64,000 nucleotides of DNA, taken from positions 124,001 through 188,000 of the forward strand of contig JAJFKP010000055.1 in NCBI GenBank assembly GCA_021773135.1, written 5' to 3'. The translations under genes were made by a program, and so were the position numbers. This DNA comes from Woeseiaceae bacterium. Its GTDB lineage: Bacteria; Pseudomonadota; Gammaproteobacteria; Steroidobacterales; Woeseiaceae. A model generated the notes under the pieces. It was not told where the DNA came from, searched no databases, and saw nothing but the letters and a program-made list of their open reading frames with translations. Below, one piece after another: positions 5,649 to 36,799 of the stretch (positions are counted from its first letter, which is position 1; every line of letters begins with the position of its first letter).

Positions 5649-7703
5649 CTACCAGATCTTGACGCGTTCATCCGGTGGCAGGTACAGGCTGTCGCCAACT
5701 TGTACGTCAAACGCCTCGTACCACTCCGGCACGTTACGAACCGGGCCATTGGCTCGATATCTGGCCGGCGCATGCGGATCGGTAGCAATTTGCTGGCGCA
5801 AAGCCTCATCGCGAATCTTGCTGCGCCACACTTGTGAAAAGCCAAGGAAAACCCTTTGCACACCGGTGAAGCCATCTATGACGGGCGGCTCTTTGCCGTC
5901 CAAAGACATTTGGTACGCGAGCAGACCGATGGTGATCCCGCCCAAATCGCCGATATTCTCACCCTGCGTGAATTCACCATTCACGTTCAAATCATCAAAT
6001 GGCGCATATGCGTCATACTGTGCGACGAGCGCAGCCGTGCGATTCTCAAACTCAGCCCGGTCAGCATCGGTCCACCAGTTGCGCAGCGCCCCATCCCCGT
6101 CGAATGTACTGCCCTGGTCATCGAATCCGTGACCGATTTCGTGACCGATAACGGCGCCGATAGCACCATAGTTGACCGCATCGTCGGCCGTGAGATCGAA
6201 GAATGGCGGCTGTAGGATTGCAGCGGGAAACACGATCTGGTTTAACGCCGGGCTGTAGTAAGCATTAACTGTCTGCGGCGTCATCCCCCATTCACCTCGA
6301 TCAACCGGACCATCGTGACGGTCGATCTGCCGCTGGTGCTCCGCCAGTGCTGCGCGGCGCAGATTTCCGAACAAATCTCCGGCCTCAATTTCGAGCGCTG
6401 AATAATCCCGCCACTCGTCCGGGTAACCGATTTTCGGTGAAAACTTTGACAGTTTTCTGAGCGCTTCAACCTTGGTTTCCTCGCCCATCCAATCGAGTTC
6501 CTTAATGCTTTTCTCGTAAGCCCTGACCAGGTTGGCCACAAGCATTTCCATGCGTTTCTTGGCCTCCGGAGGAAAGTGCTTGCTTACGTAGACCTTGCCG
6601 ACGACCTCGCCAAGAGAGCCGTTTACCGCGTTGACGCCGCGGCGCCACATGGGTTGCTGCTCCTCCGTGCCTGAAAGCGTCTTGCCATAAAATTCGAAAT
6701 TTTGCTTGTCGAGTTCTTCGTTGAGGACGCTGGCATTTGTGTTGATCAAATTCCAGGTCAGGTACGTTTTCCAGGTCTCCATTTCCGTGTCCTGAATAAT
6801 CTCGTCGAGCGCGCGCAGGTAATCGACCATGTAAAGCACGAGGCTATCGAGGTCACCGACGCCAACCTCTGCCAGCCACACATCCCAGTTAAACGCCGGC
6901 ATTACATCGGTCCAGTTCTCTCTCGCAAAGGTCTGGTAGTTCTGCGCCCTGTTGCGCGCAGCTTCCTTGGTCATGTTCTTCTCAGCCAGGCGAGTCTCGA
7001 ATGCCAGAACAGTTTGCGCAGCGGTCTCACCGTCTGGCAGGCCGACCAGGTCAAACATTTTCTCTATGTGCTCGACATAGGCTGCACGAAGCGCCACGGA
7101 TTTCTCATCTGCAAGCGTGTAGTACTCGCGATCCGGTAATCCGAGCCCTCCTTGGGTGACGATCATCGAGTACTTATCGGCATCGTTCCAGTCGACCAAT
7201 TGGCCAATATCGATCGGCATGCTAACGCCCTGCTTGTTGGCGGCAGCCATGAACACCGCAAGGTCATCGTAATTTTCGATCGCGTTTATTTGCTCCAGGT
7301 GGCCAGCCAAAGGCGTGACGCCCAGGTCATTGCGGGTCTGCATATCCATGAACGATTTGTAGAGATCGCCCACTTTCTGCTCGTCGGAGCCTTTCGCAAA
7401 ATCACCGCTCGCCGCCTCATCAACAATCGCTTTGACGTCTTCCTGGGCTTCATCACGAAGAACAATAAAGCCGCCGTAGTTGGACTTGTCTGCAGGAATT
7501 TCCGTCTCTTTGAGCCAGGTTCCGTTCATGTAGGCAAAAAAGTCGTCACCTGGCCTGACACTGGTGTCCATCGCGTCCAAATCCAGTCCTGAACCAAGGA
7601 CCACAGGGGGCGCCGTCGTCTCTTCAAACACAGGCGGTGCTTCCTGCTGCCCACAGGCAGCCAGTGCCAGCAACGCGGCAGCACTTGTCACGAATTGCTT
7701 CAT
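5649..7703 (-). CDS. M13 family metallopeptidase (neprilysin/PepO-like), lipoprotein
   Basis: A 684-residue zinc endopeptidase. The N-terminus is a lipoprotein signal (LALAAC, Cys17). The order is then the large M13 N-terminal domain, beginning DLDAMDTSVRPGDDFFAYMNGTW, and the C-terminal catalytic domain. The zinc site is intact: HEIGH at H521-H525 and the third ligand E582 in GENIGDLGG, with D586 stabilising. The substrate-binding NAYY motif is present. Members cleave oligopeptides, usually under about 40 residues, on the amino side of hydrophobic residues. Here the protein would be anchored in the envelope facing the periplasm or outside. It is transcribed in the same direction as the aldolase/amidohydrolase pair but 222 nt away, so probably a separate unit. 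The family call is very firm. Confidence 0.95.
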   Translation of the reverse strand: MKQFVTSAAALLALAACGQQEAPPVFEETTAPPVVLGSGLDLDAMDTSVRPGDDFFAYMNGTWLKETEIPADKSNYGGFIVLRDEAQEDVKAIVDEAASGDFAKGSDEQKVGDLYKSFMDMQTRNDLGVTPLAGHLEQINAIENYDDLAVFMAAANKQGVSMPIDIGQLVDWNDADKYSMIVTQGGLGLPDREYYTLADEKSVALRAAYVEHIEKMFDLVGLPDGETAAQTVLAFETRLAEKNMTKEAARNRAQNYQTFARENWTDVMPAFNWDVWLAEVGVGDLDSLVLYMVDYLRALDEIIQDTEMETWKTYLTWNLINTNASVLNEELDKQNFEFYGKTLSGTEEQQPMWRRGVNAVNGSLGEVVGKVYVSKHFPPEAKKRMEMLVANLVRAYEKSIKELDWMGEETKVEALRKLSKFSPKIGYPDEWRDYSALEIEAGDLFGNLRRAALAEHQRQIDRHDGPVDRGEWGMTPQTVNAYYSPALNQIVFPAAILQPPFFDLTADDAVNYGAIGAVIGHEIGHGFDDQGSTFDGDGALRNWWTDADRAEFENRTAALVAQYDAYAPFDDLNVNGEFTQGENIGDLGGITIGLLAYQMSLDGKEPPVIDGFTGVQRVFLGFSQVWRSKIRDEALRQQIATDPHAPARYRANGPVRNVPEWYEAFDVQVGDSLYLPPDERVKIW

Positions 7704-7925
7704 TTGCTTTCTCCTGCCGTGACCAGGATGTACTCGGTCACGCTCGTTTCGTTTGGCATGAGTACGGTTGGCCGGCCATCGTGCATTGCTGACGGCAGCC
7801 GATGCTTAATGGACCGCAACGATACACGTTTGTTTCACCGTCTGCCGCCCCCTCCCGGGCACTGGCACCGACCTGGCCAGGGGTCGAGGGTACGTCACTA
7901 CTGTGACTGCATAACTGATTGACGC

Positions 7926-8675
7926 TTACGTTTTTAGTCCTGCGATGATTTGCCGTGCGCCGCGGGTCACGAAATCGGCATCGGTGCCGGCGCAAATGAG
8001 GCTATAGCCCTGGCTGACTGACGGCATAACGCTTTCAGCCGTGACGCCGAAATAGCCCAATGGCAGGTCACGCTGCTTGCAGGCCTGTGTGACCCTGTCA
8101 ATCGCCGCAATAACCTCGGCGTCTTCAAGTTGGCCGGTCTTGCCCAGGCTGGCGGACAGATCATAGGGTCCGACGAAAATCGCGTCGATGCCCTCCACCT
8201 CTGCAATTGCCTGGATGTTGTTAGCCGCATCGACGTGCTCGGCCTGCAGGACAAGCGCAATCTCACCGTTGGCCCGTTCCAGGTATGCGGAAAAATCCAG
8301 TCCGTAACCCTGCGCGCGGGCAAGGCCGATGCCGCGCTTGCCAAGCGGCGGGTAGCGAGTCCATTTGACTGCATCACGAGCCTGCTTGGCCGTATTAATC
8401 ATTGGCACGATGATGCCGTCCGCGCCTATATCCAGCGCCTTCTTGATGCATGCTTCACTGCAGGTTGGCACGCGCAGAATACAGGCGCAGCGCCCCCCCA
8501 CCGCCTGCAATACGCGCTGCCAATCAACGCTGGACGCCGCGCCATGTTCACCATCGAGAAACAGCCAGTCGAAGCCGCACTTCGATAGCATCTCTGCTAT
8601 CTCGGGTGAGGGTAACGTCAACATCGTACCCAGCAGGAGTTCCCGTTGTTTCAGACGAGTGATGAAATTGTTCAT
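7926..8675 (-). CDS. HpcH/HpaI family aldolase (class II, pyruvate-type)
   Basis: A 249-residue TIM-barrel aldolase/citrate-lyase family protein. The conserved active-site set is visible: H44 in DGEHG, R68 in LRVP, the metal ligand E146 in LQAEH, and metal ligand D172 in GPYDLSASLG. Family members cleave or form 4-hydroxy-2-oxo acids, such as 2,4-dihydroxyhept-2-enedioate or 2-keto-3-deoxy sugar acids, giving pyruvate plus an aldehyde. It lies 23 nt downstream of the secreted amidohydrolase and is very likely co-transcribed. The HpcH name reflects fold only. No homoprotocatechuate genes are nearby, so another hydroxy-oxo acid substrate is more likely. It could process the aldol product of the neighbouring plus-strand catabolic operon, but that is speculation. 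Confidence 0.88.
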   Translation of the reverse strand: MNNFITRLKQRELLLGTMLTLPSPEIAEMLSKCGFDWLFLDGEHGAASSVDWQRVLQAVGGRCACILRVPTCSEACIKKALDIGADGIIVPMINTAKQARDAVKWTRYPPLGKRGIGLARAQGYGLDFSAYLERANGEIALVLQAEHVDAANNIQAIAEVEGIDAIFVGPYDLSASLGKTGQLEDAEVIAAIDRVTQACKQRDLPLGYFGVTAESVMPSVSQGYSLICAGTDADFVTRGARQIIAGLKT

Positions 8676-8698
8676 GAGATTCTCAACAGCCTGGATAT

Positions 8699-10018
8699 CT
8701 AGTGGTTAGGGAGAATCCTCGATTCGCCCACAAGCCGATTTAGCCCTACCCTGCCGTTACTCATGACCATCAGCGGATTGTGCAACACCGAGGGTTGCTG
8801 CAACGGATTTCTGTCAAAGACCAACAGGTCGGCCTCCATACCCGCTTCAATGACTCCTGTCTGGTCTCCAAGGCCATAGGCTTCAGCAGACTTAATGGTT
8901 GCCGCCTGCAACGCTTCGAGCGGCGTCATACCGAATTCAATGAAGGCATTAATCTCACCGGCAACCCGGTAAACACTTTCCGGGCCATACCCTGAATCCA
9001 CCGCTGTCAAAATGGGTATGCCCATTGCATGTCCCTTACGAATCATGCGGCCGAGGTTTTCAACCAGGTGGGGCCAACGCTGCCGCGCGATTGGCGTATT
9101 GTAGTCATCGTGCGGCAGCTGAAATCCGGTTACTGATATGTAGGTCGGCACCCATAATGTACCCGCCTCTTTCATCAGGCGAAGGCCCTCATCATCAACA
9201 TAGGAAGCGTGTTCGAGACTTGCACAACCTGCTTTGATTGCGGCGATAACCACTTCCACACCATGAGCATGACAGGAGACCGGTATGTCATATTTCGCTG
9301 CTTCATCGACAATGGCAGACAGTTCGTCATGATCGTAAACCAGTGTTAGTGCATCAGGTCCGCCGGTACGAGATGACAATCCACTGGAGCGTGTTTTGAT
9401 CCAGTCAACGCCACGATCAGCGTTGATGCGGACAACCTCTCGCAGTGCAGCCTCACCATGCAGAACCTTGTTCGCATACTTGTAGAGTCGAGCGTCAGCC
9501 AGGATTGCATCAGAATTGCCCAGTTCGGGGGTCACATAGACACCGGCCGCCAGAATGTCGGGCCCAACCAAGAGTCCGGACCTGACCATTTGCTTGAGCG
9601 CTACGTCGGGATAGCCGTTAACGCTTGCGCCTTTTGCCGTCGTGACTCCCGAAACCAGCGCACGCTGGGCCGCCGCCATCGTACCGCCGTGATAATGTCC
9701 CTCGAAAAATCCGGGCGTCAGGTACAGTCCGCGCATATCGACAACGTCGGCACCCGCCGGTTGTCGATCGTTGTCGACCGACACGATCAGCCCGTTCTCG
9801 ACGGTTACCGTGACAGCTCGCAGTATTTCCCCATTGCGCACATTGACCACATTGGCATTGGTCATCGCAACATGCGGCTGGGGAATAACGCCCTGATCGT
9901 CCGACTGTGATTGCCGTGTGTCGAGTGCCGGCCGCAGGTAGGGATCCTGAGCCAGCGCCATGCCGGCGCAAAACAAACTGGTGAAAATGATCGATCGGAC
10001 TTTATTGCGGGACATCAT
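8699..10018 (-). CDS. Secreted amidohydrolase (Xaa-Pro dipeptidase-like, COG1228)
   Basis: A 439-residue protein from the ATG at 10018, chosen because CAGGAGAGC lies just before it. A longer frame to 10045 lacks such a site. The signal peptide ends near MALAQ. Metal-site motifs are HxH at H108/H110 (FEGHYH), the CHAHG histidines, EHAS, and the aspartate in TAVDSGYG. It resembles the partial protein at 1-1106 in plan, so the window carries two paralogue-like exported amidohydrolases. The known relatives (Sgx9260/Cc2672 group) hydrolyse N-acyl-L-amino acids and Xaa-Pro or Xaa-Arg/Lys dipeptides. It is the first gene of an apparent two-gene operon with the HpcH aldolase and is divergent from the TRAP operon across 299 nt. 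Confidence 0.88.
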   Translation of the reverse strand: MMSRNKVRSIIFTSLFCAGMALAQDPYLRPALDTRQSQSDDQGVIPQPHVAMTNANVVNVRNGEILRAVTVTVENGLIVSVDNDRQPAGADVVDMRGLYLTPGFFEGHYHGGTMAAAQRALVSGVTTAKGASVNGYPDVALKQMVRSGLLVGPDILAAGVYVTPELGNSDAILADARLYKYANKVLHGEAALREVVRINADRGVDWIKTRSSGLSSRTGGPDALTLVYDHDELSAIVDEAAKYDIPVSCHAHGVEVVIAAIKAGCASLEHASYVDDEGLRLMKEAGTLWVPTYISVTGFQLPHDDYNTPIARQRWPHLVENLGRMIRKGHAMGIPILTAVDSGYGPESVYRVAGEINAFIEFGMTPLEALQAATIKSAEAYGLGDQTGVIEAGMEADLLVFDRNPLQQPSVLHNPLMVMSNGRVGLNRLVGESRILPNH

Positions 10019-10317
10019 GCTCTCCTGAAACGCTGCGAAAAACATCCGGTCAGCCGGACCTCCTTATAATGCATGGTAACCATTCGGTAGTGCCGTTGAC
10101 CGATTCTCAATCATTCGCCTGTAGCAGACAATGGCGAACGGAGTAAAAGGCGCCGGTCGATATTTCTGTCCGAAAAACACCCCACACCCGCCTGAGTTGA
10201 TTAGCGGCGAGCACGCAACATCATTAATGAGTCCTCCAACAGCGTAACTACTTAGCCGCTGGTACGCAGGCATCGTCCGCGTATAGTACGGTCAGTAATC
10301 GCCGCACCCGAACTGCC
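10019..10317. other. Divergent intergenic region between amidohydrolase and TRAP operon
   Basis: These 299 nt separate two divergently transcribed catabolic units and must hold their promoters. A perfect TATAAT lies at 10335-10340, just inside the longest dctP frame, which hints that the annotated dctP start may be too early. No clear -35 partner or strong inverted-repeat operator was recognised. Confidence 0.5.
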
Positions 10318-11400
10318 ATGGACGACGGAAATCCTATAATCATGCTCATTTTAATGCATCGATGCATCACCAGTTGCTTGCGCACGTTTCGGACAACCCA
10401 TCTGCGAGATTCCAAGTGCAATATTGCTGTGCAATTTTCGCTCGCTGCCTGCCTGTGCCTTAGCGCCTGCAGTTCGGACTCCGGGCTTGTGTCCGACGAT
10501 ACAATTATTCTTCGTGCCGGCCACACGACCAATGTCAACGAACCCTATCACCTTGGGCTAATGGAAATGGCGCGCATCGTCGACGAGGAGACCGGGGGGC
10601 GGGTCGAGATCCGCATTTATCCTTCCATGCAACTCGGTGGCGAGAAGGCCATGATCGAGGGACTCCTGCTTGGCGCGCTGGACATCGTCGTCACGGCAAA
10701 TGGCTCGGTAACCAATTTCGTGCCCGGCATGGGTGTGCTTGATCTGCCATTTCTGTTTCGCAGTCGAGAGCACATGTATTCGGTACTCGACGGCGACGTC
10801 GGCGACCAACTTGCGCAGCGGCTCGAGGCGCGCGGATTCCGTCTCCTCGCATTCTACGAAGCCGGCGTTCGCCACATCATGACAGCCGATAAGCCGGTAC
10901 ACTCGATAGAGGACCTCAAGGGTCTGAAGATGCGGACGATGCCGGTGCCGGCACACATTGCATCTTTCAATGCATACGGCGCGAATGCGGTGGCGGTTGA
11001 CTACGGCGAACTTTACGGCGGTCTGCAGACAGGGCTCGTCGACGGTGCCGAAGCAGCAAACACCAACTACAGCAACAAGAAGTTCTACGAAGTCGCGCCG
11101 CACTGGGCACAGTTGGGCTGGGTCATGCTGACGGCTGACCTGCTCATGTCGGACAAGCGGTTCAAATCGCTGCCGCCCGATGTGCAGATGGTCATCGCGG
11201 ATGCGGCGCGGCGCTCTGCGCATTTTGAACGACGACTTTATGCTGACAGCGATAACAGTTTGCTTGAGACCCTCAAAAACCAGGGCGTATCAGTAACCTA
11301 TCCTGATCCGGCGCCATTTCGCGAGGCGTCCAAAGCCGTCTACGAGGAATTCGTGACCAGCGAAGCCGACCGTGCGCTACTTGAAGATATCCTGAAATGA
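10318..11400 (+). CDS. dctP: TRAP transporter substrate-binding protein (DctP family)
   Basis: A 360-residue lipoprotein-type TRAP binding protein. The mature part starts after LSAC-SSD and proceeds ILRAGHTTNVNEPYHLGLMEMA, the usual first strand and helix of DctP proteins. The SVEDLKGLKMRTM-like segment (SIEDLKGLKMRTM) contains the arginine that pairs with the ligand carboxylate in the family, so an organic acid or amino acid is expected. The signal peptide sits unusually far in. Starts at 10318, 10354 or the GTG near 10432 are all possible, and a TATAAT at 10335-10340 favours a later one. Its stop overlaps the dctQ start by 4 nt. It is the first gene of the six-gene operon ending at 18470. 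Confidence 0.9.
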   Translation: MDDGNPIIMLILMHRCITSCLRTFRTTHLRDSKCNIAVQFSLAACLCLSACSSDSGLVSDDTIILRAGHTTNVNEPYHLGLMEMARIVDEETGGRVEIRIYPSMQLGGEKAMIEGLLLGALDIVVTANGSVTNFVPGMGVLDLPFLFRSREHMYSVLDGDVGDQLAQRLEARGFRLLAFYEAGVRHIMTADKPVHSIEDLKGLKMRTMPVPAHIASFNAYGANAVAVDYGELYGGLQTGLVDGAEAANTNYSNKKFYEVAPHWAQLGWVMLTADLLMSDKRFKSLPPDVQMVIADAARRSAHFERRLYADSDNSLLETLKNQGVSVTYPDPAPFREASKAVYEEFVTSEADRALLEDILK

Positions 11401-11906
11401 GCGACGCTATGTTCCGCGTTGGCACTGTTTTCGTAACCGCGTTGCGCAAATTGGTAACCGGACTCGTTGTCCTCTTTTTTAGCTATATGGCCATCGCAGT
11501 GCTGGTGCAAATTGCGGGGCGTTACGTATTCAACTATTCCATCGACTGGACCGCAGAGACCGCAACCTTTGCCCAGATCTGGATGATACTTCTCGCGGCC
11601 GGCCTTGCGATGCGGGACAAACTGCACGTCAGTGTTGATGCACTTGCACACGTGCTGCCATTGCCAGCGCAGCGCTTCCTGACAGTCGTCATTGCCCTGC
11701 CCTGCATCTGGTTCCTGTCGCAAGCGGTCTATGGCAGCTTCGCGCTGATCGAGATTGGCCGCATCCAGTCCTCTCCGGTTCTGCAATTGCCGATGTGGAT
11801 ACCCTATCTGTCTCTGCCTGTCGGACTGATCTATTTCGGTTTTGAGTTACTGCTTGCCATGGCCGCCCGGTGGCGCAATCCGACGGCTGGTAGCTTACCA
11901 ACGTGA
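11397..11906 (+). CDS. dctQ: TRAP transporter small permease (DctQ family)
   Basis: A 169-residue membrane protein with four predicted helices. It shows the family pattern RYVFNYSIDWTAETATFAQIW, in which W and E around residue 50-55 are typical of DctQ, and the GLAMRDKLHVSVD segment between helices 2 and 3. It overlaps dctP by ATGA and dctM by GTGA, indicating translational coupling. Together with DctM and the binding protein it forms a sodium-driven secondary importer in the inner membrane. Confidence 0.92.
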   Translation: MSDAMFRVGTVFVTALRKLVTGLVVLFFSYMAIAVLVQIAGRYVFNYSIDWTAETATFAQIWMILLAAGLAMRDKLHVSVDALAHVLPLPAQRFLTVVIALPCIWFLSQAVYGSFALIEIGRIQSSPVLQLPMWIPYLSLPVGLIYFGFELLLAMAARWRNPTAGSLPT

Positions 11907-13195
11907 CATTCACGCTGATCGCCTTCCTGGTCCTGATCGTAATCGGCACCCCTATCATCCTGGCCCTGGGTGTTTCAGCCGCATTGACTATTTACATCGC
12001 TGACATTCCGGTCGGCATCATCGCTCAGCGCATGTACGGTGGGCTGGATTCGTTCACCGTGATGGCCATACCGTTCTTCGTGCTGGCGGGAATCATCATG
12101 GAACGTGGCGGCATCGCCCGGCGCATAATCGATTTTTCAGTGGCACTCGTCGGCTGGATTACCGGCAGTCTGCTGCTCGTCGCCACGGTTGCGGGAATCG
12201 GCATGGCGGCTGTTTCGGGCTCCGGTGCCGCCTCGACCGCCGCCATATCTTCTATCATGCTGAAAGAGATGCGACAGCGCGGCTACGACATCGATTTCTC
12301 TGCCGGTCTGATGGCAGCCGCCGGAACCTTGGGCCCGATCATCCCACCGAGCATCATGATGGTTGTTCTGGCAACGACGGCAAACCTTTCGATTGGTCGC
12401 GCCTTCCTGGGCGGCATCGTGCCGGGCCTTCTAATGGGCGTGGTGATCATGATCGCCTGTTACTTCTATGCAAAACGCGGCGGCGATGCCTATCGCGACG
12501 CCGAGCCGTTTTCTCTGCACCGGCTCGGGCGTGCGTTCGTTGCCGCCGTGCCGGCATTCCTTCTTCCGTTAATCATAGTCGGCGGAATTATCGGCGGCGT
12601 ATTCACACCGACCGAGGCGGCAGCCGTCGCAGCATTCTGTGGTCTTGTGATCTCGCTGTTTGTCTACAAGGAAATCCGTATCGGAGACCTATCGGGAATT
12701 ATTGTCCGGGCGGCGTCTGTATCCGCGTCGATCATGATGATAATCGCTACTGCCAGCATTTTTTCCTGGCTTATCGCCGTGCAGAACATGCCTGAAACCA
12801 TCGCTGCGCTGCTGCACGGCGCAACTCAGAACCCGATTGTGTTCTTACTATTGATGAACCTGCTGCTGATCATGGTCGGCATGTTCATGGAGGGCATTTC
12901 CGCAATACTCGTGTTGGTGCCTGTGCTTCTCCCGGTGGCGATTAGTTTCGGTATCGACCCACTGCACTTCGGCGTTATCGTGATCCTCAATCTGTCAATC
13001 GGTATGATTACGCCACCGTATGGAATCACGCTGTATGTGGCAAGCAGCGTTGCTAACCGCACGGTATTGCAAGTATCGCGAAAAATTGGTCTGCCGTTCC
13101 TGTTGATGATCGCTATTCTGCTTCTGGCAACACTACTACCGGAAACGGTAACCTTTCTTCCTGATTTACTCATGCCACCCATCACGTCGAGTTAG
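11903..13195 (+). CDS. dctM: TRAP transporter large permease (DctM family)
   Basis: A 430-residue, roughly 12-helix transport subunit starting at GTG 11903, which overlaps the dctQ stop. Hallmarks are GGLDSFTVMAIPFFVLAG near the N-terminus, VSGSGAASTAAISSIMLKEM, the LGPIIPPSIMMV hairpin loop and the C-terminal GMITPPYGITLYV loop. All are standard DctM signatures that line the Na+/substrate site. Length is normal. The next gene (lyase) begins 4 nt after its stop, so transport and catabolism are coupled in one transcript. Confidence 0.95.
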   Translation: MTFTLIAFLVLIVIGTPIILALGVSAALTIYIADIPVGIIAQRMYGGLDSFTVMAIPFFVLAGIIMERGGIARRIIDFSVALVGWITGSLLLVATVAGIGMAAVSGSGAASTAAISSIMLKEMRQRGYDIDFSAGLMAAAGTLGPIIPPSIMMVVLATTANLSIGRAFLGGIVPGLLMGVVIMIACYFYAKRGGDAYRDAEPFSLHRLGRAFVAAVPAFLLPLIIVGGIIGGVFTPTEAAAVAAFCGLVISLFVYKEIRIGDLSGIIVRAASVSASIMMIIATASIFSWLIAVQNMPETIAALLHGATQNPIVFLLLMNLLLIMVGMFMEGISAILVLVPVLLPVAISFGIDPLHFGVIVILNLSIGMITPPYGITLYVASSVANRTVLQVSRKIGLPFLLMIAILLLATLLPETVTFLPDLLMPPITSS

Positions 13196-13199
13196 ATGT

Positions 13200-14105
13200 A
13201 TGACCGAGTTCAAGGGCACGTTTACGGTGACCGTCACACCTTTTTCCGCAGATGGTCGTCACATTGACGAAGAAGTTCTGCGACGCTTCGTAGACTGGCA
13301 GATCAGCAATGGTGTGCACGGACTGATCCCGGTAGCCAGCACCGGTGAATTTCTCTCGCTAAGTGATGTGGAGCGCCGACGGGTCGCGGAAATCGTAATC
13401 GAGCAGGCCAACGGCCGTGTACCGGTGCTGGTTGGTACAGGCGCAGAAAACACCTGGGACGTCGTCCGCTATAGCCGCGAGGCGGAACGCCTCGGGGCCG
13501 ACGGCGTGCTGATAATTCCGCCGTTTTACAGCACACCCACTGAAGACGAGCTGTTTGAACATTACCAGATAATAGGCGCATCGATCAGTGTACCGATCAT
13601 GTTGTACAACAATCCCGCCACCTCGAACGTAGACATGCTGCCGCCGTTCGTTGCCCGCCTCTCCGAAATTGACAACGTGTCCTATATTAAAGAGTCAACA
13701 CTGGATGCGACCCGGATTCGCGACATCATTCGGCTGAGCGACGGACGTATGTCCGTGTTTGGCGGCATCATGGGCTACGAGTCCTTCATGAATGGCGCCG
13801 TGGGATGGACTGCGGTGGGCTGTAACCTGATGCCCCGGGAGTTTGCCGATATGTACCGTTTGTGCATAGAGGTCCGGGACATCGGGGCTGCATCGATTCT
13901 CTACGAGAGAATAAAACCCGTGATCGACCTGGTCGGACAGGATCGCTATGTCGGCGCGACCAAGGCCGCGCTGGCATTGATGGGACTGCCGGTCGGATCG
14001 CCACGACCACCGCGACTCCCGGCGAATGGAGAAACGCTGGCATGGGTGCAGCGTGTGGTTGAAAGTCTCGAATTGGTATTCGATGGCCCCGCAACAACGG
14101 ACTGA
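13200..14105 (+). CDS. DHDPS/NAL-family lyase, candidate pyrroline-4-hydroxy-2-carboxylate deaminase or 4-hydroxy-2-oxoglutarate aldolase
   Basis: A 301-residue TIM-barrel Schiff-base enzyme. The family residues are present: STGEF (GTTGE-type motif), the tyrosine in IMLYNNPA and the Schiff-base lysine in VSYIKEST. Such proteins include dihydrodipicolinate synthase, N-acetylneuraminate lyase, hydroxyproline-pathway deaminase (LhpC) and mitochondrial-type 4-hydroxy-2-oxoglutarate aldolase. A biosynthetic DapA role is unlikely because the gene is wedged between a TRAP importer (4 nt) and an amino-acid dehydrogenase fusion (23 nt overlap). In known bacterial D-hydroxyproline operons an enzyme of this family deaminates the product of an LhpBEF-type dehydrogenase, which is the arrangement seen here. 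No epimerase or semialdehyde dehydrogenase is in the window, so the substrate stays unproven. Confidence 0.85.
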   Translation: MTEFKGTFTVTVTPFSADGRHIDEEVLRRFVDWQISNGVHGLIPVASTGEFLSLSDVERRRVAEIVIEQANGRVPVLVGTGAENTWDVVRYSREAERLGADGVLIIPPFYSTPTEDELFEHYQIIGASISVPIMLYNNPATSNVDMLPPFVARLSEIDNVSYIKESTLDATRIRDIIRLSDGRMSVFGGIMGYESFMNGAVGWTAVGCNLMPREFADMYRLCIEVRDIGAASILYERIKPVIDLVGQDRYVGATKAALALMGLPVGSPRPPRLPANGETLAWVQRVVESLELVFDGPATTD

Positions 14106-17013
14106 TTGCTTGCACGACAGCAAAGGCATCCGCCTCGTCGACAATGCGGTTGAAGCGACAACGACGTCGATTACTGTTGACGGCGAGAGACTGGCCGCCG
14201 TCCCGGGAGAAAGCGTCGCCGCAACGCTGATCGCGGCGGGAAAACTAAGGCTGCGTGACGACAGTCGCGGCAAACCGCGGGGACTGCTGTGTGGCATGGG
14301 CGCCTGTTTCGAATGCCGTATATCCGTGCATGACGGCGTGCCGCAGCGCGCCTGCCTGACGACGGTCACGTCCTTGATGGATGTGAAAACGCTGCAGTAC
14401 CATGAGGCACTGCCACGACAGGTGCCGGCGAATCAAGCGATTGAACGGTTATCAATTGACTGCGATGTGGTGATCATTGGCGCCGGCCCGGCAGGCGCGT
14501 CCGCCGCGATAAAACTTGCCAATGCCGGCAAGTCCGTTGTCGTCGTGGATGAGCGGCACGAAGGCGGTGGCCAATTCTTCAAACAGAAAATTGCGGCTGC
14601 AAAAGCGGCCGGGGTCGACGATCGCCAGTACCGCGCCGGCAGAGTGTTGCTCGAGCGCCTCCGGAACTCGCCTGCTCAACTGCTACTCCGCACGACGGTG
14701 TGGGGCGCGTTTCGAGATCATTCAGGACAGATCGAAGTCGGAGCGACGAACGCAACCCACACTTATATTATCAAGCCGGCCAAATTGATTGTCGCGACCG
14801 GCGCCTGCGAATCCGTGCCGCCGTTCCCCGGCTGGACACTGCCCGGCGTTATGACGACGGGTGCTGCACAGAGTCTCTTACGTGCCTATCGCGTCGGCCC
14901 GGGTCAGCGAGTGTTAATTGCTGGCAACGGGCCGCTGAACCTGCAGCTCGCCTGTGAACTGAAGCAAGCCGGCATTGACGTAGTAGCCGTTGCGGAGTCC
15001 GCGCAGCGCCCGTTTCCACGACATGCGCTGGCGTCCGTAGGCGCGATATTCGCGTCGCCGACACTTTGTCTGCAGGGGCTCGGGTATCTGCATACCCTGC
15101 GAAAATTCGGGATTCCCGTGCAGTACCAACACCAAATCTATCGCGCCGAAGGTAACGGCGCCGTGCGCAGCGCGACAATTGCTGCACTCGGTCCGGACGG
15201 ATATCCGCTCGCGAAGTCGGCCAAAACATTCGACGTCGACGCCGTATGCCTTGGCTATCGTCAATATTCTTCATCTGAAATTCTGCACGCGCTGGGCTGT
15301 GAGCAAGCTTTGGCTGACGCAGCAATCGCGCGTGATGATTCCGGACAAACCAGTGTGCCTGGTGTATTCGCCATCGGTGATGGCGCAACACCGCGCGGCG
15401 CACAGGTAGCGATTGCAGAAGGCAACCTGGTCGCGAACGCAATCCTTGGCCTGAGCAGCAGTCGCCGCGATATTGGACGCCTTCGCAGACAGCGTCGTTT
15501 TCAACGCAATCTATGGTCGATGTTTCAGGCACCGGAACCTACGGTTGCCAAATCCGACGTAATTGTGTGTCGCTGTGAGGCGGTCGGCGCCGCTTCGCTG
15601 CGTACGCTGCTGCGAAAAGGCGTGCGGGATATTGGTAGCTTGAAACGACGGAGTCGTGCGGGAATGGGGCTGTGCCAGGGCCGCTACTGCCAAAAATCAA
15701 TTCTCAGTCTGATGCGCGAGACCGACGCAATCAATTGCGCATCGTACCCGGCATTCACCACGCAAAACCCGGTCAAACCCGTGACGATCGCGAACATCGC
15801 AGAAGAAAAAGCTGAATGGCAGGGCTACCGGACGACAGACCTGCCAACGCCGGCGAAGCAACCAGACCAGCCGCAGACGTCGCTTGCCAAAACAGACGTC
15901 TTGATTATCGGTGCAGGCATTATCGGTACGACGGCTGCTCTCTATCTAAGCCGCGCGGGAGCTGACGTCATGCTGGCCGAACGTGGCGTGCCAAATGGCG
16001 AGTCTTCAGGCAGCAACGCCGGAAGCCTGCACCTGCAACTACTGCCATTCGATTACCACGAGGATCAGGGCACGTCGCCAGCCGCGTCGACGCTAATGCT
16101 GCAGAAACTCGGCATCGATTTATGGCGGGAGCTGGAGAAAGATTTGCGGGCAGATTTCGAGCTGAGCATCGAGGGTGGGTTGATGCTTGCCGACAACCAG
16201 GACGACTTGAGGTGGTTGACAAAGAAGGCCGTCCTGGAACAAGCGTTTGGCGTGGAAACCCGGATACTGTCAGCAAGCGAGACCCGTGATCTCTTCCCCG
16301 GCGTGGCTGACCACATTGCCGGCGCGGCGTATTGCGATGGCGAGGGGAAAATTAACCCGCTGATCACGACGCCGCTGTTACTGACAGCTGCCCTGCAGGA
16401 CGGCGCACGACTGATCGAGCGAACGACGATTATTGATATCGAGCACACGCACAATCGTTATCGCGTCTCGACAGACCGTGGTGTAATTACCTGCCACACA
16501 ATCATCAATGCGGCGGGCGGCTGGTCGGCCGGAATTGCCAGACTCATCGGCGCTGCACTGCCCGTCAGATCTGCACCGCAGCAAATGCTGGTGACGCAAC
16601 CCGTACAGGCGCAGTTGCCATACCTGCTATCGCTGGCACGCCGCCACCTCACAATGAAACAGACCAAGAACGGTAATATTCTGATTGGTGGCGGCTGGCC
16701 CGGCAGCTACGACAGGCGTAACAAGCGTGTCATCACATTGCGCGACAGCATCGAGGGAAACCTTTGGGTTGCCCAGCGTATCTCCCCGCAAATCGGGAGT
16801 CTCCAATTGATTCGCAGCTGGGCCACGACTGGCGTAATGATTGACGGCGCACCCATTATCGGCGAGTTGCCGGGACATCCTGGCTTCTATAACGTGGTTG
16901 GTGCCAATGGGTACACAATGGGGCCGATGCTCGGGCGCATAGTGGCAGACCTGATTGTAACCGGCCACGCGCCGCTCGACATCGCACCATACTCGATCGA
17001 ACGGTTTAACTAG
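14083..17013 (+). CDS. Fused Fer2/FAD-NAD/BFD-FeS/DAO oxidoreductase (HcnABC or LhpF-E-B in one chain)
   Basis: A 976-residue protein from ATG 14083, which overlaps the lyase by 23 nt. The open frame reaches upstream to 14026. Domains in order: (1) residues ~20-105, a [2Fe-2S] ferredoxin fold with C70-x4-C75-x2-C78-x12-C91, as in sarcosine oxidase alpha and HcnA/LhpF; (2) ~125-485, a pyridine-nucleotide-disulfide-type flavoprotein with FAD motif G133-x-G135-x-x-G138 and a second nucleotide motif at G281-x-G283, where N286 replaces the last Gly, ending in FAIGDGA; (3) ~490-545, a BFD-like [2Fe-2S] domain with C496-x-C498 and C531-x4-C536; (4) ~600-976, a DAO-fold FAD amine oxidase with G610-x-G612-x-x-G615. 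In HcnABC, opine oxidases and D-hydroxyproline dehydrogenase these are two or three separate subunits. The DAO part oxidises a secondary amine or amino acid and passes electrons through the flavin/FeS parts to the respiratory chain. No export signal, so it acts in the cytoplasm or at the inner membrane face. Confidence 0.9.
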   Translation: MAPQQRTDCLHDSKGIRLVDNAVEATTTSITVDGERLAAVPGESVAATLIAAGKLRLRDDSRGKPRGLLCGMGACFECRISVHDGVPQRACLTTVTSLMDVKTLQYHEALPRQVPANQAIERLSIDCDVVIIGAGPAGASAAIKLANAGKSVVVVDERHEGGGQFFKQKIAAAKAAGVDDRQYRAGRVLLERLRNSPAQLLLRTTVWGAFRDHSGQIEVGATNATHTYIIKPAKLIVATGACESVPPFPGWTLPGVMTTGAAQSLLRAYRVGPGQRVLIAGNGPLNLQLACELKQAGIDVVAVAESAQRPFPRHALASVGAIFASPTLCLQGLGYLHTLRKFGIPVQYQHQIYRAEGNGAVRSATIAALGPDGYPLAKSAKTFDVDAVCLGYRQYSSSEILHALGCEQALADAAIARDDSGQTSVPGVFAIGDGATPRGAQVAIAEGNLVANAILGLSSSRRDIGRLRRQRRFQRNLWSMFQAPEPTVAKSDVIVCRCEAVGAASLRTLLRKGVRDIGSLKRRSRAGMGLCQGRYCQKSILSLMRETDAINCASYPAFTTQNPVKPVTIANIAEEKAEWQGYRTTDLPTPAKQPDQPQTSLAKTDVLIIGAGIIGTTAALYLSRAGADVMLAERGVPNGESSGSNAGSLHLQLLPFDYHEDQGTSPAASTLMLQKLGIDLWRELEKDLRADFELSIEGGLMLADNQDDLRWLTKKAVLEQAFGVETRILSASETRDLFPGVADHIAGAAYCDGEGKINPLITTPLLLTAALQDGARLIERTTIIDIEHTHNRYRVSTDRGVITCHTIINAAGGWSAGIARLIGAALPVRSAPQQMLVTQPVQAQLPYLLSLARRHLTMKQTKNGNILIGGGWPGSYDRRNKRVITLRDSIEGNLWVAQRISPQIGSLQLIRSWATTGVMIDGAPIIGELPGHPGFYNVVGANGYTMGPMLGRIVADLIVTGHAPLDIAPYSIERFN

Positions 17014-17069: not shown

Positions 17070-18470
17070 ATGCACAACATTTTGTTTCTCCAGCGCACCG
17101 TAGTTTGCATCGTCGCAATATTGATTCTCATTTCAACCGGGCAACCGATTTACGCCGACGACACCTTCGCTATACCCGGCTCGAAAGAGCGCTTCGAACT
17201 GCGTCGAAAGATTGTTGCCGACAAACTGGATCGGGCGCTGCTACCGGCAATGCGCAAACACAGTGTGGATATGTGGATAGTTCTGGACCGCGAGAACAAC
17301 AGCGACCCGTTACATGCAGAACTCGGGGGTGGCTTTTCCGGGGTGCGCGCTGCGTTCGTATTCTTCGACAATGGCGGAGATACGCCCGAAAAAATCTACT
17401 ACGGCTCGCATTCTCAACCCGCCAATTCGGTTGTCGCCCAGGTCTACGATGAAACGATCTACTACGGCTATAGCCCGGACGGTTTGACTCCACATCTGCG
17501 TAAACTTGTGCATGACCGCGAGCCACAGACGATTGGCGTCAACACTTCCGCTACCCTGCCCGATGCCGACGGCCTGACCGTAGGCCTGAGTAATTTTCTG
17601 AACGAGACGATTGGCGTTGACTACGCGAAGCGCATCGTTTCGGCGGAACTGGTCGTTCGCGATTTTCGCCTGAACCGAACGGCGCTAGAGAGCAAGGCCT
17701 ACACCGATGCACTGAACTGGACTGCCAGTTGGATGGAAGAGGCACTGAGCACGGCGAATATCCGCACCGGGGAGACAACGTCCGAAGACATCGCCTGGTG
17801 GCTGGAAGATCGTGCACTGGAACTCGGTCTGACCAGCTCAGCCACAACGCGTGTCGTGCGTGGCGGTGAAATGATGCCGGTACACGATCCAAACATTGCG
17901 CTGCAACCCGGCGACATCATCAACATTGACGGTGGCCTGCACTACCTCGGGTTCGAGGTGGATATCAAACGCACCGCTTACATACTGGAGCCCGGCGAGA
18001 CGTCGCTGCCGGAAGGGCTTCTGTCGGCATGGCGTGACGCGCAAAGAATGGGGGCACTGTACGCCAGCAAGATGGTGCCTGGCGCAGTTGGTCACGAGAT
18101 CTGGTCAGCCATCAATGCTGACGCGGCGCGGCGCGGCTACAAGGCGGTCGGACCGGATAGCGGCGGTGTTGGTGAGGAGTCCCTGCGTGCCGAGATCGGC
18201 GTTTACGGCCATTCCGTTGGCAACGTAGCACATGACATAGGTGCGAGAATTGCGGCAGATTTGCCGTTTGCGTACGGAGACCGCGTGCGCTTCCCGCTGC
18301 AGACCAATGAATGGGTTTCGATCGAATTACATGTCAACACGCCCATCCCTGAATGGGACAACAATACCTGGTATGCGCGTTTTGAAGAAACGGCACAGGT
18401 AACAGACGACGGCGTCCGCTGGATGATCGAAAACCAGGAGAATGTATTTCTGATCGCGCCAAGCGAATGA
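17070..18470 (+). CDS. Exported M24 family metallopeptidase (Xaa-Pro aminopeptidase/prolidase-like)
   Basis: A 466-residue pita-bread-fold peptidase with a Sec signal (residues 1-30, ending IYADD). The five metal ligands are readable: D287 and D298 (NIDGG and EVDIKR), H381 (GVYGHSVG), E419 (SIELHV) and E439/440 (RFEETAQV). The N-terminal creatinase-like domain precedes them. Members remove residues next to proline or split Xaa-Pro dipeptides, and some relatives act on creatine-like or opine-like amides. It follows the fused dehydrogenase by 56 nt with AAGG upstream and is probably the last gene of the operon. A periplasmic enzyme releasing proline or hydroxyproline would feed the TRAP importer at the head of the operon, which is the main contextual argument for that substrate class. 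Confidence 0.88.
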   Translation: MHNILFLQRTVVCIVAILILISTGQPIYADDTFAIPGSKERFELRRKIVADKLDRALLPAMRKHSVDMWIVLDRENNSDPLHAELGGGFSGVRAAFVFFDNGGDTPEKIYYGSHSQPANSVVAQVYDETIYYGYSPDGLTPHLRKLVHDREPQTIGVNTSATLPDADGLTVGLSNFLNETIGVDYAKRIVSAELVVRDFRLNRTALESKAYTDALNWTASWMEEALSTANIRTGETTSEDIAWWLEDRALELGLTSSATTRVVRGGEMMPVHDPNIALQPGDIINIDGGLHYLGFEVDIKRTAYILEPGETSLPEGLLSAWRDAQRMGALYASKMVPGAVGHEIWSAINADAARRGYKAVGPDSGGVGEESLRAEIGVYGHSVGNVAHDIGARIAADLPFAYGDRVRFPLQTNEWVSIELHVNTPIPEWDNNTWYARFEETAQVTDDGVRWMIENQENVFLIAPSE

Positions 18471-33335: not shown

Positions 33336-34118
33336 TTGAAAACACTATTCATCACTACCGTACTTTGTACGCTTTCGCTCACTTACACGGCAACCGCGGC
33401 CGAGCTGGTCGTTGGCGCAAACATCGGCAATGTGCCCTGGGAATTTCAGGACGCCAGGGGTGACTTTGTCGGTTTCGAGATCGACCTCGTCAAGGAAATC
33501 GGCAAGCGTCTGGGCCGGGAGGTCGAAATCGTAAACATCCCTTTCAATGGACTGTTTTCGGCAGTTCAGTCCGGTCGTATCGATATCGCGCTGTCGTCGA
33601 TCACGATCACCGACAAGCGACTCGGTTCCGTTTCGTTTACGCAGCCCTATTATGACAGCGCTCAGTCTCTGACCGTTTCATCGCGGAGCAAGGCGACCGG
33701 ACTTGAGGATATGGACGGCAAAGTCATCGGCGTCGATACCGGATCAACCGGCGACATGTGGACCACTGGTAACAGCGACACCTACGGCTTCGACAACATT
33801 CGTCGTTTCGAGGGACTCGCACCTGCAATGCTCGATTTGCAAAGCGGGCGCATCGACGGTTATATCTCGGACATTCCATCTCTCGAGTACTACATAAAAG
33901 ACAAACCGTTCTTCAAAGTCATCGAACGCATAGAGACCGGCGAAAGCTATTCTATGATGCTCGCCAAGTCGACACCGCTGACCGATGAAGTAAACGACAT
34001 AATCAGCACCCTGAAGCAGGAAGGCTACGTGGCCAGATTACACGAACAGTGGTTCGGCACGGTGCCGGCGGCAAACAGTGCAACGGTTATGGTTGTCGAA
34101 AAACCGCTCACGCATTGA
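33336..34118 (+). CDS. Amino-acid ABC transporter substrate-binding protein (GlnH/FliY-type)
   Basis: 260 residues starting at TTG 33336 behind AAGGGGAATACCG, with a signal peptide ending in TATAAE. SBP_bac_3 motifs: LVVGANIGNVPWEFQDARG, GFEIDLVKEIGKRLG, SGRIDIALSSITITDKR and VSFTQPYYDSAQ. The last, followed by GKVIGVDTGSTGD, is typical of polar amino-acid or cystine binding proteins. First gene of a transporter operon that continues with permease, ATPase and a PLP enzyme. Confidence 0.92.
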   Translation: MKTLFITTVLCTLSLTYTATAAELVVGANIGNVPWEFQDARGDFVGFEIDLVKEIGKRLGREVEIVNIPFNGLFSAVQSGRIDIALSSITITDKRLGSVSFTQPYYDSAQSLTVSSRSKATGLEDMDGKVIGVDTGSTGDMWTTGNSDTYGFDNIRRFEGLAPAMLDLQSGRIDGYISDIPSLEYYIKDKPFFKVIERIETGESYSMMLAKSTPLTDEVNDIISTLKQEGYVARLHEQWFGTVPAANSATVMVVEKPLTH

Positions 34119-34134
34119 GCCTGACTTCCACTAA

Positions 34135-34809
34135 ATGAGTTTTGCTGAAACATTCTTTAACTGGGATGTCCTGGTTAATTCATTCCCGCTGCTGCTCTCG
34201 GGACTGAAGATAACGCTATTCCTGGGTGTGGTTGCAATCATTGCGGGCCTCGTGCTTGGACTGATCGTTGCACTCGTTCGCCTTTATGGCGTCAAACCGG
34301 CGCGCATCATCGCAAAAATTTACATCGACATCTTTCGCTCGATTCCTATACTTGTACTGCTCATCGTCGTTTATTACGCATTGCCTTTTGTCGGCCTACG
34401 GCTGTCACCCTTCATGTCGGCGGCGCTTGCACTCACGCTGGTGTCAGGCGCCTACACCGCCGAAATATTTCGTGCCGGCATCGAAGCCATTCCCAGGGGG
34501 CAGTTTGAGGCATCTCAGGCATTGGGTTTGAGTTACAGACACATGATGGCCGACATCGTTCTGCCACAGGCCATTCGCATCGTCATTCCACCACTGACCA
34601 ACAACTGTATTAATGTCATGAAGGATACGGCACTGGCATCTGTTGTCGCGATGCCGGATCTATTGAAGCAGGCCACCCAGGCACAGGCACTGGAAGCGAA
34701 TCCAACGCCTTTGATCGTGGCTGCTTTGATGTATATAGCAATCCTCTGGCCACTCGTGTACCTCGTAGGCAGGTTGGAAAAGAAATACCGGAACGAGGTC
34801 GCCCGATGA
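34135..34809 (+). CDS. Amino-acid ABC transporter permease (HisM/GlnP family)
   Basis: 224 residues with about five membrane helices. The EAA loop that docks with the ATPase is [20 protein letters not shown], followed by GLSYRHMM and [19 protein letters not shown], all characteristic of polar amino-acid permeases. It starts 17 nt after the binding-protein stop, and its stop overlaps the ATPase start by 4 nt. No second permease gene is present, so it likely works as a homodimer. Confidence 0.94.
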
Positions 34810-35543
34810 CTGACATCGTTTCGATCAGCAAACTGAGCAAAAAATTCGGCAGTTTCACCGCCCTGGACGGGATTGATCTCAATGTTGCTGAAGGCGAAGT
34901 CGTCTGCATCATAGGCCCGTCCGGTTCGGGCAAATCCACCTTGATCCGTTGCATCAACCTGCTCGAACAATTCGATAGTCCGGGCAGAATCGTCGTCGAT
35001 GGTACGACTGTGAAGCGTGGCAAGGAGCTCGCCCGGGTCAGGGCTGAGGTCGGCATGGTGTTCCAGTCCTTCAACCTGTTTCCGCACATGACCATCCGAC
35101 AGAACATAAAGCTTGCACCGATGCGAGTAAGAAAAACCGGCGACCAGGCCGCCGACAAACTGGCGCAGCAGCTAATGCAGCAGGTTGGTATCGAGGCACA
35201 GGCCGACAAGTATCCGGATCAGCTTTCAGGCGGACAACAACAGCGTGTGGCGATCGCACGAGCGCTCGCGATGAAGCCCAGGATTCTTCTTTTTGACGAA
35301 CCTACTTCTTCGCTCGATCCGGAAATGGTTGGCGAAGTGCTCGACGTGATGAAACGGCTGGCAGAATCCGGCGTAACCATGCTTGTCGTAACCCATGAAA
35401 TGGGCTTTGCGCGCCAGGTCGCAGACCGGGTCGTCTTCATGGACGGTGGGAAGATAGTCGAGACCGGCAAGCCGGATGCGATCTTTGACGACCCACGTGA
35501 AGCGCGAACCCGGAATTTTTTGAATGCCATCTTGGCTCACTGA
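34806..35543 (+). CDS. Amino-acid ABC transporter ATPase (GlnQ/HisP family)
   Basis: 245 residues. Walker [11 protein letters not shown]-loop [12 protein letters not shown], signature LSGGQQQR, Walker [15 protein letters not shown] and the H-loop VVTHEMGFA are all intact. The domain order and length are those of polar amino-acid importers. Overlaps the permease by ATGA. The next gene starts 15 nt after its stop. Confidence 0.96.
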
Positions 35544-35557
35544 CACAGGATAATGAA

Positions 35558-36799
35558 TTGAGTAAATACCCAGCGCTCGATATCGACTTTGTACGCGAAC
35601 AGTTTCCAGGCCTGCAGCAAGGCTGGGTACTATTTGACAATGCCGGGGGCACGCAAATTCTGTCGCGCAGCGTCGAACGTATGAACGAGTTCCTGTTTAA
35701 TATGAATGTTCAGACTGGCGGTAGTTACGAACTGTCATTGAAAGCCGCAGCAGCCATGCAAGCGGGGCGCGAAGCCATGATGCAGTTCGTGAACGCCGCA
35801 CGCCCGGAAGAAATCGCCTTCGCCGCATCGACCACGGTCGCCCTGCAAAACCTTGCTCGAAGCATGCAAAGCCAGATCGAGCCTGGGGACGAAATAATCG
35901 TCACGGTATCGGATCATGAGTCAAATATTGGGCCATGGGTTGGACTGGAAGATGCCGGAGCCACAATTAAGACTTGGCTGATCGACAAGCATACGCTTGA
36001 GTTGAATTTAGACGATCTCGCTGCCCTGATGACAGATCGTACCAAGTTGGTCGCTGTTACCTATGTTTCAAATATTCTCGGTACAATTAATCCAATTGCC
36101 GACATCGCAAGAGTCGTCCATGACCACGAGGCGAAAATTTGTGTCGATGCAGTTGCATTTGCGCCGCACCGGGCCATCGATGTTGCCGCCCTGGACGTCG
36201 ACTTCCTGGCATTCAGTCTGTACAAAGTATTCGGCCCGCATCACGCGGTACTGTATGGAAAATATGATCTTTTCGCTGAGCTCGACAATCTTTATCATTA
36301 TTTCTACGGTAAGGACAAGGTGCCGGCAAAGCTCGAACCCGGCAACGCCAGCTACGAGCTCTCGTATTCCACCACCGGTATCGTCGATTACTTTGCGGAG
36401 CTAGCAACTCGGGCAGGTGCGACCGGCTCATTGCGAAATAAAATCGAATTCGCTTTCGAACAAATCACACGCCATGAAAACGAACTAGCAGAGCGCCTAC
36501 TTGGGTACCTGCGCAAACGGGACGACTGCCGTGTAATTGGCTTTGATCACGGCGACGATCCTCGACGAGTGCCCACCGTCAGCTTCGTCATCGATGGTCA
36601 GGATGCCGGTGCAATTGCAAAGAAAATTGACGCATACAAGATTGCCGTACGATTCGGCGATTTTCATGCACGCCGGCTTGTTGAGTACCTGGACATCGCC
36701 GCAAACGGGGGCTGCCTGCGAGTATCGATGACCCACTACAATACCCTTGGCGAGGTCGATGCGTTAATTGCGGCGCTGGACGAGGTCCTGCCAACCTGA
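35558..36799 (+). CDS. Cysteine desulfurase-like PLP enzyme (class V aminotransferase, VC1184/TIGR01976 type)
   Basis: 413 residues, TTG start at 35558 (MSKYPALDIDFVREQFPGL) behind AGGA. The PLP lysine is K223 in FSLYKVFGPH, with the aspartate of CVDAVAFAPHRAIDV and histidine of VSDHESN typical of the SufS/Csd-like group. The family lacks a proven housekeeping role in Fe-S assembly. Sitting 15 nt behind a complete amino-acid ABC importer, it may act on the imported amino acid, for example releasing sulfur from cysteine or a selenium/sulfur analogue. The enzyme call is firm, the substrate is inference. Confidence 0.85.
   Translation: MSKYPALDIDFVREQFPGLQQGWVLFDNAGGTQILSRSVERMNEFLFNMNVQTGGSYELSLKAAAAMQAGREAMMQFVNAARPEEIAFAASTTVALQNLARSMQSQIEPGDEIIVTVSDHESNIGPWVGLEDAGATIKTWLIDKHTLELNLDDLAALMTDRTKLVAVTYVSNILGTINPIADIARVVHDHEAKICVDAVAFAPHRAIDVAALDVDFLAFSLYKVFGPHHAVLYGKYDLFAELDNLYHYFYGKDKVPAKLEPGNASYELSYSTTGIVDYFAELATRAGATGSLRNKIEFAFEQITRHENELAERLLGYLRKRDDCRVIGFDHGDDPRRVPTVSFVIDGQDAGAIAKKIDAYKIAVRFGDFHARRLVEYLDIAANGGCLRVSMTHYNTLGEVDALIAALDEVLPT

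Follow-up and report, generated by a model that had tools for sequence, protein, structure and literature searches.

A 64,000-nucleotide stretch of the genome of a Woeseiaceae bacterium (assembly GCA_021773135.1, contig JAJFKP010000055.1, forward-strand positions 124,001 to 188,000; hereafter the window) carries a gene, P0001, that joins four redox domains in a single 976-residue chain. The fusion is real, uncommon and apparently uncharacterized, and no description of it or of its operon was recognized in searches of the open-access literature, as judged by their listings. We consider it probable (roughly 0.6) that the protein is a one-chain flavin-containing amino-acid/opine dehydrogenase that works with import, electron relay and a route through a lyase of the dihydrodipicolinate synthase (DHDPS) fold. 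The domains and motifs, their conservation, a DHDPS-family gene near each fusion read and trees compatible with one fusion event are all directly observed.

The fused gene and its predicted cofactors

The gene and its parts have the following positions in the window.

14083 to 17013, + strand: fused dehydrogenase gene P0001, 976 residues, single frame
14161 to 14394, + strand: Fer2_4 [2Fe-2S] domain, residues 27-104 (Pfam E 3e-15), with C70, C75, C78 and C91 (14290-14355)
14464 to 15423, + strand: Pyr_redox_2 flavoprotein domain, residues 128-447 (Pfam E 6e-37), alpha-like, putative first FAD site with G133-x-G135-x2-G138
15562 to 15717, + strand: Fer2_BFD cluster domain, residues 494-545 (Pfam E 2e-7), with C496-x-C498-x32-C531-x4-C536
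15838 to 15888, + strand: variable linker between the alpha-like and DAO halves, residues 586-602, of low identity and with low model confidence at 590-597
15895 to 16953, + strand: DAO half, residues 605-957 (Pfam E 6e-70), beta-like, putative second FAD site, with the FMN-type motif R911-S-W913 (16813-16821)

An earlier note on this DNA, made from the letters alone, had read the order Fer2_4, Pyr_redox_2, Fer2_BFD and DAO in one frame, and both translation and Pfam bear this out. All four domains exceed the curated Pfam cut-offs, the only stop lies at the end of the 976 residues, and neither a stop nor a frame break occurs across residues 545-600. The start at 14083 is the call of that note; the longest open reading frame (ORF) opens at 14026, within the upstream DHDPS gene. 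The genome comprises 4.55 Mb in 64 contigs, with a completeness of 99.67%.

The cofactors can be predicted by analogy with the enzyme of PMC4575208, excerpts of which give 2 FAD, 1 FMN and one [2Fe-2S] center per alpha-beta-gamma unit, an Arg-x-Trp FMN motif, and the [2Fe-2S] motif C-x4-C-x2-C-x11~12-C. The fusion has the R-x-W motif (R911-x-W913), a C-x4-C-x2-C-x12-C motif and the FAD glycine motif in its DAO part. A second four-cysteine motif, C-x-C-xn-C-x4-C, is present and invariant, with n = 32 here versus 15~20 in those excerpts. The prediction on this basis is 2 FAD, 1 FMN and one or more [2Fe-2S] clusters, in an enzyme that acts as a dehydrogenase and not as an oxidase. The two flavins per chain originally proposed must accordingly be revised to an expected three, given the R-x-W motif and the PMC4575208 enzyme as excerpted. 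Both cysteine motifs behind the proposed pair of [2Fe-2S] clusters are kept, but the second cluster is not certain, as the excerpted enzyme has one.

Relationship to known enzymes

The suggested kinship with the flavin-containing dehydrogenase/oxidase group is supported by the Pfam matches and by relatives in the PDB (1y56, 2gag/1vrq). The fusion would work like the LhpBEF/OpnDH/L-ProDH group and, judged by sequence, has its features, except that it is one chain and that its second cysteine motif is spaced differently from the published one. LhpBEF and OdhABC (alpha4beta4gamma4), as described in excerpts of PMC4575208, share its domain set, both types of cysteine motif, the FAD glycine motifs and the FMN motif, and differ in consisting of three chains rather than one. 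In the L-proline dehydrogenase of P. horikoshii (1y56), the alpha subunit unites a Fer2-like part, an FAD domain and a BFD cluster in one chain, as in the fusion, and the beta subunit is a DAO protein with the R-x-W motif in the alignment, like the fusion's DAO half. The enzyme differs in having two chains, and 1y56_A has no cysteines where it aligns with the Fer2 part of the fusion.

The earlier note had also stated that the homologous parts are separate subunits elsewhere. This holds for the join to the DAO half, which is unusual, and fails for ferredoxin and flavoprotein, whose union in one chain is ordinary: in L-ProDH, according to the same excerpts, the first ~120 residues of the alpha subunit are the counterpart of gamma, and nine genomes of the window's order encode separate alpha chains that match residues 14-604 of the query. 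What is out of the ordinary is therefore confined to the attachment of the DAO half.

Heterotetrameric sarcosine oxidase (SoxA/SoxB) is a further comparison. SoxA combines Fer2, an FAD domain and an A3 domain, and the SO_alpha_A3 match of the fusion (501-573) scores 22.7 bits against a cut-off of 23.1; SoxB is a DAO protein, like the DAO half, and SoxA and SoxB are separate chains. Assignment of the fusion as a sarcosine oxidase alpha subunit (TIGR01372) is rejected, with 136 bits against a cut-off of 1164 and no GCV_T match.

Conservation and structural model

In an alignment of 28 fusions, the eight cluster cysteines, the six FAD-site glycines of both motifs and R911-x-W913 are invariant in every row, and the last BFD cysteine is always separated from the DAO half by 64-71 residues. 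Mean pairwise identity is lowest in the linker (0.24 for residues 586-602), intermediate in the alpha part (0.50) and highest in the DAO half (0.59). The DAO half is more conserved than the alpha part in 98.7% of pairs, as expected of a substrate-binding part. Distances in the two halves are highly correlated (r 0.94; none of 2000 permutations as high), which reflects joint inheritance and nothing beyond it, since the rows share ancestry.

An AlphaFold2 model built from a second alignment (21 fusions) has a mean predicted local distance difference test score (pLDDT) of 81 and a predicted template modeling score (pTM) of 0.82; residues 590-597 fall below a pLDDT of 50. The model suggests that the two halves have a defined mutual placement, because a random arrangement of two parts of ~580 and ~380 residues would not be expected to give a pTM as high as 0.8. 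The top seven matches in Foldseek all come from 1y56, 1vrq, 2gag and 4ysh chains, with 1y56_A the best; these entries represent L-proline dehydrogenase, heterotetrameric sarcosine oxidase (1vrq, 2gag) and glycine oxidase.

Recurrence and origin

The same one-frame fusion is found in 34 distinct records, the window included, after all sources were pooled and four duplicate loci (L004, L058, L059, L060) removed. Carriers are alpha-, beta- and gammaproteobacterial; 12 records are from Azospirillum, five are from Halomonas/Vreelandella or group with them, and several are plant- or rhizosphere-derived. A scan of genome contigs with P0001 confirmed 34 loci, 24 of which have the alpha-like and DAO-like halves in one ORF. 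Of the other ten, one is cut by a contig end (L046), one has its frames broken (L047) and eight lack the single-frame fusion (L049-L054, L056, L057). L046 and L047 lie outside the 34 records, and L107, which looks like the same locus as L035, is uncounted. In the plasmid collection, the best 14 rows each match 97-100% of the query in one piece, and those with a listed gene carry the name "FAD-dependent oxidoreductase". A divergent fusion (L108/L109, 38%) was counted apart. In L047 (Halomonas olivaria TYRC17 record, ~6104-15495), the fusion, TRAP transporter genes and HydA are all divided among several frames; this number of breaks within a single operon points to decay or to errors in sequencing.

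Strong full-length matches are few: 4 of 398 genomes in the phylum sample including the window's (E 1e-120), 2 of 369 in the class sample including the window's (E 1e-100), and 3 of 385 in the sample from the class of G451, whose own match is counted among them (E 1e-140). The order sample gives 10 matches in 396 genomes at E 1e-100, and the nine besides the window's own cover only query residues 14-604, the alpha-like part. The fusion is thus uncommon and patchy, at 0.3-0.8% of sampled genomes with the window's genome and G451 left out, by strict E cut-offs that more divergent fusions would escape. The rarity stated in the earlier note stands in this sense, though the architecture recurs in alpha-, beta- and gammaproteobacterial records and is not unique.

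L036 was left out of the alpha and DAO trees, leaving 33 fused rows; the trees also omit separate rows that fell below set limits of score and length, as well as the shorter versions of loci that were available at greater length. In the alpha tree (55 rows), the fused rows correspond to one label change on a branch with support 64/18, recovered in 60% of 200 bootstrap trees. In the DAO tree (58 rows), they again require one label change (88/93, 88% bootstrap), with several long rows flagged. A single fusion event is the simplest reading of both halves, although the trees do not prove it. The window groups with L024 and L025, both Rhodospirillales records, in both trees; in the alpha tree, the fusions of two genomes of the window's own class group with Halomonas (G109) and Variovorax (G438). 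Eleven genomes of the same genus (71-95% complete) gave no full-length fusion match; a separate alpha chain was found in one same-genus genome and in four of the same family. The fusion was likely acquired by transfer.

Conserved neighborhood and the DHDPS-family protein

A DHDPS-family gene lies within 10 kb of the fusion in all 34 records. Over the same distance, importers of the polar-amino-acid ABC (PAAT) type occur in 27 records and of the tripartite ATP-independent periplasmic (TRAP) type in 7 (L026 has both, L035 neither), a GntR-type regulator in 25, a dihydropyrimidinase (HydA) in 22, DUF3830 in 16, an M20 hydrolase in 7, and AH_C, an EamA-like protein and a class IV aminotransferase in 5 each; the labels come from BLAST to fixed reference proteins, several from these same loci, and the shares describe the neighborhoods rather than test them. 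Flanks of at least 5 kb and 4.5 kb were available in 32 of the 34 records. M20 stands in place of the dihydropyrimidinase in L024, L027, L033 and L085. L025 (Rhodospirillaceae) has GntR, TRAP, DHDPS, HydA, M20 and the fusion in one run, with a DHDPS protein 73% identical to the window's. The existing annotation of the Aureimonas, Azospirillum brasilense, Azospirillum argentinense and Agrobacterium vitis plasmid loci is concordant with this pattern. The divergent fusion L109 has an adjacent DHDPS-like gene (33%), and genes for an amidase and an HpcH/HpaI aldolase-family protein lie in its vicinity. In L045 (12979-14285) and its Halomonas/Vreelandella relatives, a stand-alone AH_C gene (PF21986) and a gene for an EamA-like transporter (weak TIGR00950 match) lie between the fusion and HydA.

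The fusion-linked DHDPS proteins form one group with one change (79/91; 78% of 200 bootstrap trees) in a tree that flags long rows, L024 among them. The window's protein is probably not a DapA, to judge from its score and motifs. NCBIfam dapA is the best model, at 184 bits below its cut-off of 206. The lysine of the KEST/KEAT motif, which we take to be the Schiff-base lysine, is retained. Entries 6xgs and 4nq1, both named synthases, have PGR after the second tyrosine motif, and its arginine presumably has a role in DapA; the window's protein has PAT, which makes a different 2-oxo or imino acid the likely substrate. DapA is consequently a disfavored assignment for 13200-14105, which is below the cut-off and without this arginine.

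Separate alpha and DAO genes also occur near DHDPS genes, in L068, L069, L080, L082 and L092 and in L091. The DHDPS genes of the first five form a clade of their own, and L091, outside the DHDPS tree, is annotated with GcvPA/GcvPB, a 3-hydroxyacyl-CoA-dehydrogenase-like gene, short-chain dehydrogenases/reductases (SDRs) and a DHDPS-family gene. These loci may represent another pathway of the same kind.

Genes around the fusion in the window

8699 to 10045, - strand: amidohydrolase, divergent from the TRAP genes; best NCBIfam model Xaa-Pro dipeptidase, 204 bits against a cut-off of 500
10318 to 11400, + strand: TRAP substrate-binding protein DctP (Pfam/NCBIfam)
11397 to 11906, + strand: TRAP small membrane subunit DctQ (Pfam)
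11903 to 13195, + strand: TRAP large membrane subunit DctM (Pfam)
13200 to 14105, + strand: DHDPS-family protein (class I aldolase fold), 301 residues, overlapping the start of the fusion
17070 to 18470, + strand: M24 metallopeptidase-family protein, 57 bases downstream of the fusion

No dihydropyrimidinase or M20 hydrolase was found in the window's operon, and among the 34 records the window's is the only one with a BLAST relative of the M24 protein near the fusion. At another place (C30, 80313-81713; L104:8272-9771), the same genome encodes a PRK13404-type HydA that belongs to the same NCBIfam family, at 735.7 bits against a cut-off of 647. It adjoins an Asp/Glu/hydantoin-racemase-family gene, with a distant DHDPS-like gene near and an ORF that may encode an SDR; this second locus may be a separate hydantoin pathway.

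Several further genes in the window deserve mention. An HpcH/HpaI aldolase-family gene (7926-8675, - strand) adjoins the divergent amidohydrolase; L109 likewise has a gene of this family near its fusion. Positions 33336-36799 hold an SBP_bac_3 protein, BLAST-similar amino-acid ABC permease and ATPase genes and a class V aminotransferase, a set that reads as a second amino-acid uptake cluster. A separate DAO-family gene (39662-40957, - strand, 212 bits) has no alpha-like partner noticed alongside.

Proposed function

In the explanation we favor, the importer would bring in an amino acid, probably D- or secondary, whose C-N bond would be oxidized by the DAO half. Electrons may then pass from the DAO FAD by way of an interface FMN into the flavoprotein half with its one or two [2Fe-2S] centers, and finally to an acceptor, usually guessed to be respiratory quinone. 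The adjacent DHDPS-fold lyase would next split or deaminate the resulting imine or 2-oxo compound, if the reactions run in this order. The presence of hydrolases in most operons points to a cyclic amide-type compound as the source of the amino acid, which most relatives would first free from it by a dihydropyrimidinase/hydantoinase and/or an M20 hydrolase. The window's genome has kept the TRAP importer, with the M24 protein and the amidohydrolase alongside.

A more specific proposal, which we put forward tentatively and hold somewhat less likely to be right than wrong, is an undescribed catabolic route of soil, plant-associated and halophilic Proteobacteria. It would comprise PAAT or TRAP import, opening of a cyclic ureide- or imide-like ring by a PRK13404-type dihydropyrimidinase (with M20, DUF3830 or AH_C helpers), one-chain oxidation, and a dedicated DHDPS-fold cleavage or deamination, with the fusion fixing the ratio of electron-transfer and catalytic parts.

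Several observations weigh against these proposals. A dihydropyrimidinase is missing from the flanks read in 12 of the 34 records, the window's included (the flanks of L035 and L036 are short). The HydA of the window's genome sits elsewhere with its own racemase-family and DHDPS-like genes, and a link to the fusion operon is a guess. The DHDPS-like gene closest to the fusion in L024, at 1.2 kb, shares only 25% identity with the window's; another, ~5.6 kb upstream, reaches 51% and is the long row (1.98) of the DHDPS tree. Two Azospirillum records name the DHDPS gene dapA, which is also its best NCBIfam model. The 60% bootstrap value of the alpha tree is weak support for a single fusion origin, and the 34 records are not independent, with two of the 12 Azospirillum entries having identical DAO halves.

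Alternative explanations

The fusion might instead be a flavin-containing opine dehydrogenase, which would cleave a secondary-amine dicarboxylate to yield an amino acid plus a 2-oxo acid. Its kin Oox, Nox and OpnDH have the same cofactor set in excerpts of PMC4575208, and both the plant or rhizosphere derivation of several carriers and the usual polar-amino-acid ABC importers would fit. The DHDPS-fold lyase would lack a clear role, however, and the four annotated fusion neighborhoods contain no annotated ornithine cyclodeaminase or opine synthase. L094, the sole locus annotated with octopine/nopaline-dehydrogenase-family genes, falls outside the fused group in the DAO tree. We regard this function as unlikely.

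About as unlikely is a one-chain LhpBEF, that is, a cis-4-hydroxy-D-proline dehydrogenase with the DHDPS protein as Pyr4H2C deaminase and hydroxyproline supplied from peptides by the M24 protein and the amidohydrolase. The pathway outlined in excerpts of PMC4113996 runs from an epimerase through a c4Hyp oxidase (DAAO) and a DHDPS-type deaminase to an aldehyde dehydrogenase, and the oxidase and deaminase belong to the same protein families as the fusion and its neighbor. A peptidase-family gene and an amidohydrolase do adjoin the fusion in the window, and 12 of 13 other fusion genomes carry a PF05544 gene somewhere. The window's own genome has none, however, and in one A. brasilense genome (G1142) the gene lies ~260 kb from the fusion on the same contig; excerpts of PMC4575208 moreover attribute a heteromeric D-HypDH to this species. 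BLAST revealed no racemase-like ORF within the flanks read of any of the 34 fusions, while the same BLAST finds one in seven non-fused loci (L050-L054, L056, L057). The DHDPS genes of four epimerase-linked loci form a separate clade (100/100) from those linked to the fusion. Aldehyde dehydrogenase matches near five of the 34 fusions (L026, L044, L048, L065, L086) and the broken L047, and not in the window, are a weak test, as the single succinate-semialdehyde-type query matched only L054, faintly, among the epimerase-linked loci. We do not file the fusion as LhpBEF, given the flanks without racemase-like ORFs, the window genome without PF05544 and the separate DHDPS clade; the hydroxyproline analogy drawn in the earlier note is disfavored on the same grounds.

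An artefact of sequencing or assembly, such as the join that the earlier note had named as a refutation, or an accidental read-through from one gene into another is next to impossible as the origin of the single chain. Nothing was found in its favor, and it is rejected, with 34 distinct one-frame records and, in the 28 aligned, a linker stretch of steady length and invariant cofactor residues.

Significance

Members of this family are multi-subunit and hard to purify, and their subunits have been exchanged within the family, according to excerpts of PMC4575208. A single chain that probably binds three flavins and one or two [2Fe-2S] clusters would offer a convenient one-gene system in which to study electron transfer, and the fusion freezes an architecture whose subunits otherwise swap. 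The fusion recurs together with a DHDPS-fold protein, probably not a DapA, and in most cases with a hydantoinase-type hydrolase, a pairing that marks a pathway.

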